Shown here: one piece after another, positions 22,517 to 24,358 of the stretch | Layout: every line of letters starts with the position of its first letter | How positions within the stretch are numbered: position 1 is the first letter of the stretch | NCBI GenBank assembly: GCA_017963165.1 | Contig: JAGCTZ010000027.1 | Span: 1 to 27,384, forward strand | Direction of reading: 5' to 3' | Length of the DNA stretch: 27,384 bases | Origin: Treponema sp. | GTDB lineage: Bacteria > Spirochaetota > Spirochaetia > Treponematales > Treponemataceae | Program-made: the position numbers and the translations under genes | The notes under the pieces: model-generated | What the model saw: only the letters and a program-made list of their open reading frames with translations | What the model was told of the DNA's origin: nothing | Database searches by the model: none

Positions 22517-22606
22517 AAAAATGCCGGATGCGGAGTAGAAAATGGGCGAGAACAACATCATCCCCGTTGGCCGAGTACATTTTCTACGGGAGCGTCCGGC
22601 ATTTTT
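22517..22606. repeat. Structured intergenic repeat, family 2, copy 2c; bidirectional terminator
   Basis: Outer stem AAAAATGCCGGA (22517-22528) with TCCGGCATTTTT (22595-22606), extended by a wobble and GC/GC. Then GGAG (22532-22535) faces CGGGA (22587-22591). Second stem TAGAAAATG/CATTTTCTA (22536-22544, 22578-22586). A small CAAC/GTTG inner hairpin is also possible. With A/T ends on both sides it can stop transcripts from both the J-domain gene and the convergent tyrS. Confidence 0.88.
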
Positions 22607-22616
22607 TCCTTATTGA

Positions 22617-23849
22617 TTAAAGTTCGCCTAAATAATACTTTTTCTTTCCGCGGCGGAAGATGATTACTTTGCCTTCCAATGCAATATCCTTCTTGATAAC
22701 CGCAGTTTCATCATTAATAACTTCGCCGTTTACGCTGATTGCATTATTCTTTATAAACTCGCGTGCTTCACGTTTTGAACTTGCCATTCCGTTGTTTACA
22801 AGAACATCAACAAGTGGAGCATCTTCGGTAAACTTAAAGGTTGGAACACCTTTCATTCCAGTGAGGATATCTTTTACTGCAAGGCCTTTGAAGTCTCCTG
22901 CAAAAAGCTTTTCGCTAACCTGAACAGCGTTGTCTGCTTCTTCTTTGCCGTGAAGATCTTTTACAATTTCCCATGCAAGTGTTTTCTGAGCAATACGCTT
23001 TTCAGGAGCAGCCATGTGCTGTGCGTATACATCTTCAATCTGCTCTTTTGAAAGGAATGTAAATACCTTAAGATATTCCAGAACCTTAGAGTCATCAGAG
23101 TTAATGAGGTACTGGTAGATTGCGTAAGGAGCAGTTTTTTCTTTGTCCAGCCAGAGGGCATTTCCTTCTGACTTACCAAACTTCTTTCCTGTTGCATCCA
23201 GAATAAGTGGCATTGTAAAGGCATATGCCTGTCCGTCCAGCATTTTTTTAATGAGGTCTACACCTGTTGTGATGTTTCCCCACTGGTCGCTGCCGGCAAC
23301 CTGCATAAGACATTTCTTTTCCTGGAAAAGATGAACAAAGTCAAAGCCCTGTAAAAGCATGTATGAAAATTCTGCGTATGTAATTCCAGTTTCAAGACGG
23401 CGTCGGATAATATCTTTGTCGAGCATGTAATTGAGGCTTACGTATTTTCCAATATCGCGAAGTGTGTCAAGGAAGCTCTTGCCTTTCCACCAGTCGTAGT
23501 TGTCTACAAGTTCTGCAGTTGGGACAAGGCGCTGAACCTGTTCTCTGATTCCTTTGATATTATTGTTTACAGCTTCTTCAGAAATAATTTCGCGCTCTGC
23601 TGTTGGGCGTGGGTCTCCAATACGACCTGTTGCTCCACCACAAAGAAGAATAGGGTGATGACCTGCATTGGCAAGGCGCTTAGCCATACACAAAGAAGAA
23701 TAATGACCAATATGAAGTGAATCTGCTGTAGGGTCTGTTCCCCAATAAAAAGCGAATGGTTTTCCGTCCAAAACCTTCTGTAAATCTGATTCTTCTCCGG
23801 CAACATCCTTAATGAGGCCACGCCATTTAAGATCTTCAAACAATGTCAT
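22617..23849 (-). CDS. tyrS: Tyrosyl-tRNA synthetase
   Basis: Charges tRNA-Tyr with tyrosine in the cytosol. The 410-residue class I synthetase has the HIGH motif at 46-49 (ADSLHIGHYS), the KMSKS equivalent KFGKS at 223-227, and the tyrosine/tRNA region (YAEFSYMLLQGFDFVHLF, GSDQWGNI). A C-terminal S4 RNA-binding domain runs from about 353 (MASSKREAREFIKNNAISVNGEVI). The start at 23849 has AAGGAG 10 nt upstream. It is preceded by a terminator and a Tyr-rich leader ORF, so it is probably controlled by attenuation. infA lies upstream on the same strand. Confidence 0.96.
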   Translation of the reverse strand: MTLFEDLKWRGLIKDVAGEESDLQKVLDGKPFAFYWGTDPTADSLHIGHYSSLCMAKRLANAGHHPILLCGGATGRIGDPRPTAEREIISEEAVNNNIKGIREQVQRLVPTAELVDNYDWWKGKSFLDTLRDIGKYVSLNYMLDKDIIRRRLETGITYAEFSYMLLQGFDFVHLFQEKKCLMQVAGSDQWGNITTGVDLIKKMLDGQAYAFTMPLILDATGKKFGKSEGNALWLDKEKTAPYAIYQYLINSDDSKVLEYLKVFTFLSKEQIEDVYAQHMAAPEKRIAQKTLAWEIVKDLHGKEEADNAVQVSEKLFAGDFKGLAVKDILTGMKGVPTFKFTEDAPLVDVLVNNGMASSKREAREFIKNNAISVNGEVINDETAVIKKDIALEGKVIIFRRGKKKYYLGEL

Positions 23850-23894
23850 TTTTCAATGTCTCCTTAATAAAATATATAAAATATAAATGAATAT

Positions 23895-23924
23895 AAAAAA
23901 AGCCTCCCGTAAATGCGGAAGGCT
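23895..23924 (-). terminator. Intrinsic terminator in the tyrS leader (attenuator)
   Basis: On the minus strand AGCCTTCCG (23924-23916) pairs with CGGGAGGCT (23909-23901), nine pairs with one wobble and a six-base loop, followed by T6 (23900-23895). It lies between promoter and gene, 46 nt before the tyrS start. Its 5' arm can instead pair with the leader segment TGCGGAA (23974-23968). Confidence 0.85.
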
Positions 23925-23953
23925 GTAATTACCATTATCAAAAAACACAAATA

Positions 23954-24058
23954 CTATTGTGCACCGTTTCCGCAGGCAGAGAGAAAATTATAGCTATAAT
24001 AAAGGTAAGCCAACGTTGAGGAATTAATTTTCTGTGCCCATCGGATAATATTTTTCAT
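23954..24058 (-). CDS. Putative tyrosine-rich leader peptide of tyrS
   Basis: A 34-residue ORF (ATG at 24058, TAG at 23956-23954) too short for usual gene callers. Residues 17-23 read AYLYYSY, four Tyr codons within six (TAC, TAT, TAT, TAT). The stop lies 30 nt before the terminator stem. No Shine-Dalgarno sequence precedes the ATG; the predicted transcript start is only about 2 nt upstream, so translation would be of the leaderless type. The remaining sequence shows no other domain and the peptide is presumably unimportant in itself. Tyr density, position ahead of tyrS and the competing hairpins are the grounds for the call. Confidence 0.65.
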   Translation of the reverse strand: MKNIIRWAQKINSSTLAYLYYSYNFLSACGNGAQ

Positions 24059-24066
24059 ACTCGCAA

Positions 24067-24095
24067 ACTCTAACAGAATATGATTTTTGTGTCAA
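24067..24095 (-). promoter_or_regulatory. Promoter of the tyrS leader
   Basis: A perfect TTGACA (24095-24090), exactly 17 nt, TAGAGT (24072-24067) on the minus strand, between infA and tyrS. It ends 8 nt before the leader-peptide ATG. Confidence 0.7.
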
Positions 24096-24139
24096 TGCAA
24101 ACTGCATGATGTCAGATGTGAATAAATATAACCGTCCTG

Positions 24140-24358
24140 TTATTTCTGACGGAAAATAATTCTTCCTTTGTTCAAATCATAAGGAGAAAGGGCTACTTTT
24201 ACGCTGTCGCCCGGTACGATTCTAATGTAGTGCTTGCGCATTTTTCCAGAAAGATGTGCAAGAATCATGTGTCCGTTCTGTAATTCAACACGGAAAGTTG
24301 TGTTTGGAAGTGCTTCTTTTACTACGCCTTCTACTTCAATTGCTTCTTCTTTAGCCAT
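24140..24358 (-). CDS. infA: Translation initiation factor IF-1
   Basis: The 72-residue product has the normal length and sequence of bacterial IF-1, a single OB-fold that binds the ribosomal A site during initiation: [40 protein letters not shown], and [19 protein letters not shown] near the end. It has a leader of about 80 nt from a promoter that overlaps the divergent promoter of the DksA-like gene. A GAGG lies about 16 nt before the ATG, further than usual. tyrS follows on the same strand but has its own promoter. Confidence 0.96.

Follow-up and report, generated by a model that had tools for sequence, protein, structure and literature searches.

Transcription attenuators of aminoacyl-tRNA synthetase genes have been described for pheST in gamma-proteobacteria and predicted for trpS and leuS in Streptomyces (PMC1262725). 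According to the same paper, no such structure for tyrosine was found in Actinobacteria, T-boxes are named for tyrosine elsewhere, and the mycobacterial cys leaders have no conserved terminator hairpin. Leader ORFs without a 5' untranslated region are also on record. The trpL leader of Sinorhizobium meliloti is a leaderless attenuator ORF (PMC7298713), and leaderless polycysteine ORFs are reported from mycobacteria (Canestrari 2020, as cited in PMC9031893). In front of aroF, the uORFC-13-1 motif of Acholeplasma and environmental sequences, which is thought to sense Phe, has a ribosome binding site (RBS) and a U run coding for at least one Phe; Treponema is not named in the main text of that paper (PMC8632094). 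In the accessible parts of the mainly open-access literature searched, no leader-peptide attenuator was found for tyrS, and none in spirochaetes.

Here we analyze a leader in front of tyrS in a 27,384-nucleotide stretch of Treponema DNA (hereafter the window). An earlier note, made from the letters of this stretch, had proposed a tyrosine-codon attenuator with trp/his-type logic at this position. Comparison with related leaders argues that a ribosome-mediated transcription attenuator, responding to scarce charged Tyr-tRNA, very probably controls tyrS.

The leader between infA and tyrS

The promoter, the leader ORF and the terminator all lie on the minus strand between infA (IF-1; 24138..24358, TIGR00008), the upstream neighbour, and tyrS (22617..23849), which encodes a tyrosyl-tRNA synthetase of 410 aa (TIGR00234, 358.7 bits; cut-off 113.8). 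The -35 hexamer TTGACA (24090..24095) and the -10 hexamer TAGAGT (24067..24072), the latter with a TG in front, are separated by 17 nt and match the consensus at 10 of 12 positions; the -10 hexamer ends 8 nt 5' of the leader ATG. The leader ORF (23954..24058) runs from the ATG at 24058-24056 over 34 codons to a TAG at 23956-23954, and its translation is MKNIIRWAQKINSSTLAYLYYSYNFLSACGNGAQ. Codons 18-23 (23990..24007) are TAC CTT TAT TAT AGC TAT, with Tyr at codons 18, 20, 21 and 23. At a Tyr frequency of 3.7%, taken from 19 window ORFs treated as genes, four Tyr codons in one given six-codon stretch have a probability of about 3e-5, a value uncorrected for how many such stretches there are. Both the promoter and the Tyr-rich ORF are present where the earlier note had read them.

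The remaining elements of the leader are defined by base pairing. The protector arm (region 1; 24025..24045) was taken from the minimum-energy fold, in which it pairs with the surroundings of the antiterminator arm when the leader is untranslated. The core of this antiterminator arm (region 2), TGCGGAA at 23968..23974, lies within the ORF, 11 nt 5' of the stop codon. It is complementary to region 3, TTCCGCA at 23914..23920, whose alternative partners are region 2, giving the antiterminator, and the 3' arm of the terminator. The intrinsic terminator (23895..23924) comprises a stem-loop of nine pairs (23924-23901) and a T6 run (23900-23895), so that this complementarity and the terminator are as had been claimed. 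In predicted folds the stop codon is placed in the loop of a small hairpin (23945..23962). An AAGGAG at 23860..23865 is the likely ribosome binding site of tyrS. The fold of the leader RNA has a z of -3.8 and beats 200 of 200 shuffles.

A spirochaete origin of the window, which had been considered probable, is supported by the names attached to its tyrS relatives. Those with at least 67% identity are named Treponema, Spirochaetaceae or Spirochaetales, and many of the closest genes come from rumen genomes. Two other features of the window may be mentioned. A long hairpin at 22518-22605, between the convergent tyrS and DnaJ-domain genes, is perhaps a two-way terminator (-45.4 kcal/mol, z -6.4 for RNA of the plus strand; -37.0 kcal/mol, z -4.2 for RNA of the minus strand). 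A gene for a DksA/TraR-type zinc-finger protein (PF01258; 24411-24884) is divergent from infA-tyrS.

Related leaders before tyrS and DAHP synthase

We compared 63 TyrS loci, 60 of which were examinable upstream; L040, L050 and L060 begin inside tyrS and were left out. Of these 60 loci, 22 have a homologous leader 5' of tyrS. When 146 genomes from the genus were scanned with a sequence pattern, a second leader set (e.g. MSNTTRWAQIINFSMLAYFYFSFYWFS) came to light 5' of the gene for DAHP synthase, which catalyses the first step in making aromatic amino acids. A profile built from both sets matched 74 times, in 68 of the 274 genomes of the family; 40 matches stood before tyrS, 30 before the DAHP synthase gene (aroF), 3 at contig ends and 1 elsewhere, with gene identity judged from 5-mers in common with a reference. 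One DAHP synthase was checked against NCBIfam (PRK08673, 453.6 bits; cut-off 335). Seven leaders precede a much diverged TyrS with only 8-13 5-mers in common with the window TyrS, and the one of these that was run against NCBIfam was recognized as TIGR00234. The match at L184 (E 0.0098) had neither tyrS nor DAHP synthase downstream by 5-mers. With L184 and the three leaders cut by contig ends left out, 69 distinct leaders (40 tyrS, 29 aroF) were analyzed. Profile searches of 390 genomes of the order and 392 of the phylum, which are samples of larger groups, gave nothing convincing beyond the genomes of the family search. A match in genome G735 (E 9.8e-4) was treated as chance, its locus (L206) having no LAYxY stretch on inspection of the motif.

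The homologous leaders before DAHP synthase are rich in Tyr, Phe and Trp; examples are L080, L083, L085, L098, L103, L105, L107, L108 and L115, each of which has its own terminator and a promoter that stops 6-10 nt short of the ATG. Some aroF loci have a prephenate dehydrogenase-like frame downstream (one piece, E 8e-8, below the curated cut-off). Strains of T. bryantii (L010, L030, L032) carry the homologous leader, which is therefore testable in culture.

The leader codons follow the downstream gene, Tyr for tyrS and Tyr, Phe and Trp for aroF. The mean numbers of Tyr/Phe/Trp in codons 18-27 were 3.20/1.02/0.10 in tyrS leaders (n=40) and 3.41/2.93/0.52 in aroF leaders (n=29), and at least two Phe or Trp codons in this stretch were present in 11 of 40 tyrS leaders versus 28 of 29 aroF leaders. 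By the earlier note, an attenuator would be contradicted if relatives had broken leader ORFs or ORFs lacking Tyr codons. This was not the case: the frame was open in all 40 distinct tyrS leaders, and 37 of them had at least three Tyr in codons 18-27. As a separate observation, codon 18 (24007-24005 in the window), the first Tyr, is TAC in 67 of the 68 leaders with Tyr at this place; the 19 window ORFs prefer TAT (TAT 212 versus TAC 78).

The leader ATG had been suspected to be leaderless, and this had been counted as an objection to such control. Promoters were accepted at a spacing of 16-18 nt with at least 8 of 12 consensus matches. Such a promoter, with its end 6-10 nt 5' of the ATG, was present in 22/40 tyrS and 28/29 aroF leaders, or 23/40 and 29/29 (52/69 overall) once the starts of L179 and L182, which stand too far upstream in the pairing, constraint, fold and geometry analyses, had been corrected for the promoter and codon counts. 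Shuffled upstream DNA yields 1.3 (tyrS) and 1.0 (aroF) such promoters. A leaderless start therefore appears to be the rule, and transcription in the window is expected to begin on the ATG or a few nt from it, judging from the promoter spacing. This spacing is conserved among the leaders. The remaining 17 tyrS leaders lie directly behind infA, as judged by eye, and seven of them have an AGGA-type site.

Because the homologous leaders had been found by their own sequence, a search starting from the genes was also run. The core pattern was absent from 38 TyrS loci; at one of these (L031) tyrS is preceded by a Tyr-rich ORF. This leader, MRYTYYCRYYYYYYS, lies 149 nt before tyrS and has nine Tyr in 15 codons, a terminator, and a promoter (TTGACT-17-TAATCT) whose end is 6 nt from the ATG. 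A DAHP synthase was identified in 213 of the 274 family genomes. Among the best 30 loci by score, 25 had a leader of the described kind and 5 had none; one of the 25, L227 (AYLYYYY), is without RWAQ. Twenty further aroF loci were hand-picked as unflagged by the leader profile: 14 have an ORF with at least six aromatic codons in ten (shuffled expectation 0.42), and in the other 6 an aromatic-rich leader is absent. In all 14 a terminator hairpin follows the ORF, and in 12 a promoter stands 6-9 nt before the ATG, a count biased by a choice of starts that favoured promoter-bearing ATGs. Several unrelated-looking aromatic-rich leaders precede DAHP synthase at L241, L243-L246 and L249-L257, for example MKNITYAYYYYWYSHKACRVLAK, the aroF leader of other sequence in the T. 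bryantii genome G010, and MKANLNFTSQTSQKYGTKLAYFYYYWYYFFSS. The aromatic run, the terminator and the close promoter are general; the remaining peptide is not.

Within the homologous class the peptide is conserved, with W7 in 62, I11 in 63, S14 in 64, L16 in 66, and A17 and Y20 in all of the 69 leaders. Over all pairs of tyrS leaders, the single-base differences in codons 6-22 are silent in 2325 cases and replacing in 901 (0.11 of neutral), as against 265 and 1373 in codons 24-30 (1.62 of neutral); the corresponding values for aroF leaders are 0.28 and 0.32 of neutral. Non-overlapping nearest pairs point in the same direction, more weakly (36 silent/55 replacing versus 4/96 for tyrS; 26/63 versus 6/56 for aroF). 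It should be noted that this class was found by patterns and profiles of the conserved stretch, so that its conservation was partly selected for.

The homologous leader is patchily distributed. In a quick tree of 51 tyrS genes, its presence needs 10 changes, 7 of which are forced by well-supported branches. The tree holds the window and 50 of the 63 TyrS loci, with partial and distant genes omitted (among them those of the leader-bearing L053 and L058), and codes the homologous leader only, so that L031 is scored as without. The nearest relative of the window, L001, has no homologous leader. Of 18 close loci without the leader, 12 have an infA-tyrS gap of 11-60 nt and no terminator, and two (L013, L028) have longer gaps, again with no terminator; in L031 the end of infA was not found in the upstream stretch. 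The other three of the 18 (L022, L025, L062) have a terminator-like hairpin before tyrS and no leader ORF, and are possible losses of the switch. Upstream of tyrS in two Bacilli/Bacillales MAGs (L051, L054), there are what we take to be T-box-like ends (GGTGGTACCGCG).

Pairing, spacing and predicted folds of the leaders

A terminator hairpin (-11.4 to -24.0 kcal/mol) with a T run is present in 69 of 69 leaders, a count made without a shuffled comparison. The pairing between arm 2, which lies towards the 3' end of the ORF, and arm 3, the 5' arm of the terminator, beats shuffled sequence (p ≤ 0.05) in 52 of 69. To the left of an invariant GG core the arms co-vary; one pair, for example, is GC in 23 leaders, AT in 13, GT in 12, TA in 2 and CG in 1. 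The left flank forms 162 standard pairs, versus 140.0 ± 3.8 after permutation (0/1000) and 142.2 ± 3.6 after permutation within the gene class (0/1000); 30 thinned rows give 71 versus 56.6 ± 3.2 (1/2000). Co-variation of the right flank is weak (108 versus 99.1 ± 3.4, 10/1000; thinned rows 235/2000). Since a register chosen on the observed pairing only would favour the observed value, the register was re-chosen for every permuted pair. When 22 leaders were aligned with MAFFT and the plain alignment was given to RNAalifold, six pairs resulted, without any compensatory change. The terminators were out of register in that alignment, and the per-sequence register analysis was therefore used instead. 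The antiterminator pairing proposed for the window thus recurs in relatives with compensatory changes, which lie mainly in the left flank. By eye, a conserved TTACC may also pair with a conserved GGTAA before the terminator.

The co-variation, geometry and folding analyses cover 66 of the 69 leaders; L138, L147 and L152 are without the GGRN core of the arm, and two of these still pair, L152 being the exception. For the geometry, ribosome footprint limits of 14-17 nt on either side were assumed. All 38 testable tyrS leaders have the arm at least 15 nt past the A site of a ribosome stalled on any Tyr codon, and 26 of 28 aroF leaders have it there for a stall on the last Tyr codon. If the stall is placed on the last aromatic codon within codons 18-27, the arm is 15 nt clear in only 12/38 tyrS and 10/28 aroF leaders. 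The arm core stands at most 17 nt before the stop codon, within the footprint of a ribosome at the stop, in 34/38 tyrS and 19/28 aroF leaders. The stop placement pointed out in the window, by which a terminating ribosome would cover the arm and a ribosome stalled on Tyr codons would leave it free, is accordingly found in tyrS relatives as well. The spacing of codons, stop and arms suits trp/his-type attenuation, and suits it best for the Tyr codons. A ribosome at the stop codon masks about 26 nt, according to PMC13236596.

Folds were predicted for the RNA that a ribosome stalled at codon 20 leaves free and that still lacks region 4; here the antiterminator formed in 58 of 66 leaders. With the ribosome at the stop codon, the terminator formed in 66 of 66. 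Without translation, 65 of 66 leaders were predicted to form the terminator, and 49 of 66 the 1:2 protector hairpin. When the complete leader was folded with the ribosome stalled, the antiterminator had the lowest energy in only 9 of 66. The decision must therefore fall during transcription, as in a kinetic switch, and a kinetic decision of this kind is assumed for known attenuators.

Proposed mechanism, rival readings and known systems

The trp/his-type logic proposed for tyrS is supported by the Tyr codons, the co-variation and the spacing in relatives, and the following course of events is suggested. RNA polymerase would begin the transcript on the leader ATG or only a few bases away, and a ribosome would load on the 5'-terminal AUG of the 34-codon leader. 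When charged Tyr-tRNA is ample, the ribosome would reach the stop codon and cover region 2; regions 3 and 4 would then pair, and transcription would end before tyrS. When charged Tyr-tRNA is scarce, the ribosome would halt on codons 18-23, opening the 1:2 hairpin and leaving region 2 free. Region 2 could then capture region 3 while region 4 is being made, so that the terminator is bypassed and tyrS is transcribed. In a leader that is not translated, the 1:2 and 3:4 hairpins would form and transcription would stop. The gene is thus probably switched on when tyrosine is short. Leaders with Tyr, Phe and Trp codons would act likewise on DAHP synthase.

It is worth noting that the conserved peptide allows another interpretation. 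A nascent RWAQxINxSxLAY in the exit tunnel might make or sensitise the stall at the Tyr/Phe codons, as an arrest peptide for which TnaC is the model. Residues 6-17, mostly not control codons, are conserved in the homologous class, where codons 6-22 evolve at the low rate given above, and the SD-led leaders behind infA retain the conserved residues. The constraint is, however, weaker in the non-overlapping pairs, and the conserved stretch partly forms the 1:2 hairpin. Moreover, the conserved peptide is missing from L227, L031 and the 14 further aroF leaders, all of which possess the aromatic run. These leaders stand before the same genes, which lowers the arrest-peptide reading, and only the codon run is common to leaders so unlike each other, which favours codon sensing. 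We therefore consider an arrest peptide unlikely. A ligand-binding riboswitch or T-box whose core merely resembles an ORF, which the earlier note had named as a refuting finding, could account for the near-invariance of some silent sites such as TAC at codon 18. It is highly improbable, however, because the codon content switches with the gene and the unlike leaders have only the codon run in common; an Rfam scan of the leader gave only sub-threshold matches, no family reaching its gathering score and no T-box appearing even when E values up to 5 were allowed.

The position directly downstream of infA raises the question of whether the terminator merely ends infA transcription, the ORF being incidental. 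The terminator-like hairpins kept without a leader at L022, L025 and L062 would fit such a role. We give this reading hardly any credence, since the same leader and terminator occur before aroF, arm 2 and arm 3 co-vary, and 12 of the 18 close loci without the device have no terminator in their short infA-tyrS gap. The released leader RNA or peptide might in addition act in trans, like rnTrpL/peTrpL of S. meliloti. In favour of this, termination would yield a short mRNA that is leaderless, which rnTrpL may also be (PMC7298713). The patchiness of the homologous leader on the tyrS tree argues against an action in trans, and we regard it as very unlikely.

Returning to codon-dependent attenuation, we propose, so far tentatively, that in Treponemataceae both the charging of aromatic amino acids (tyrS) and their synthesis (DAHP synthase) are generally controlled by leaderless aromatic-codon attenuators, which have been renewed repeatedly; the peptide outside the run would be free, and initiation at a 5' AUG would be functional. 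If this is true, the 5'-terminal AUG would let a ribosome load without delay on the emerging RNA and translate in step with the polymerase. The 69 distinct homologous leaders in two codon classes form a natural set for asking why attenuator ORFs are leaderless; the set also includes SD-led and leaderless versions, unlike leaders, and close pairs with and without a leader.

In comparison with known systems, the Treponema leaders resemble the trp/his/phe-type attenuators in having a short ORF with control codons, a terminator, an antiterminator and a stop codon placed to mask the antiterminator arm, and they resemble the pheST, trpS and leuS attenuators in preceding a synthetase gene. They differ in that the gene is tyrS with Tyr codons, in spirochaetes, that most of them appear leaderless by promoter spacing, and that a homologue also stands before DAHP synthase. 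The aromatic leader-peptide logic is that of Phe_leader (RF01859), of which the window leader is not a member (18.7 bits, E 0.89, versus a gathering score of 55). With S. meliloti trpL and the polycysteine ORFs, they would have in common codon-dependent control and a leader AUG at the 5' end of the RNA, whereas the phylum, amino acids and targets are different. Like uORFC-13-1, they place an upstream ORF and a terminator before DAHP synthase, but that motif has an RBS and a Phe-coding U run. The T-box of Firmicutes tyrS has the same target gene and probably the same signal, tRNA charging. Unlike the T-box, for which the Rfam model gives no match here, the Treponema leader uses a translated ORF, and the task of the T-box, control of tyrS by charging, would be done by another device.
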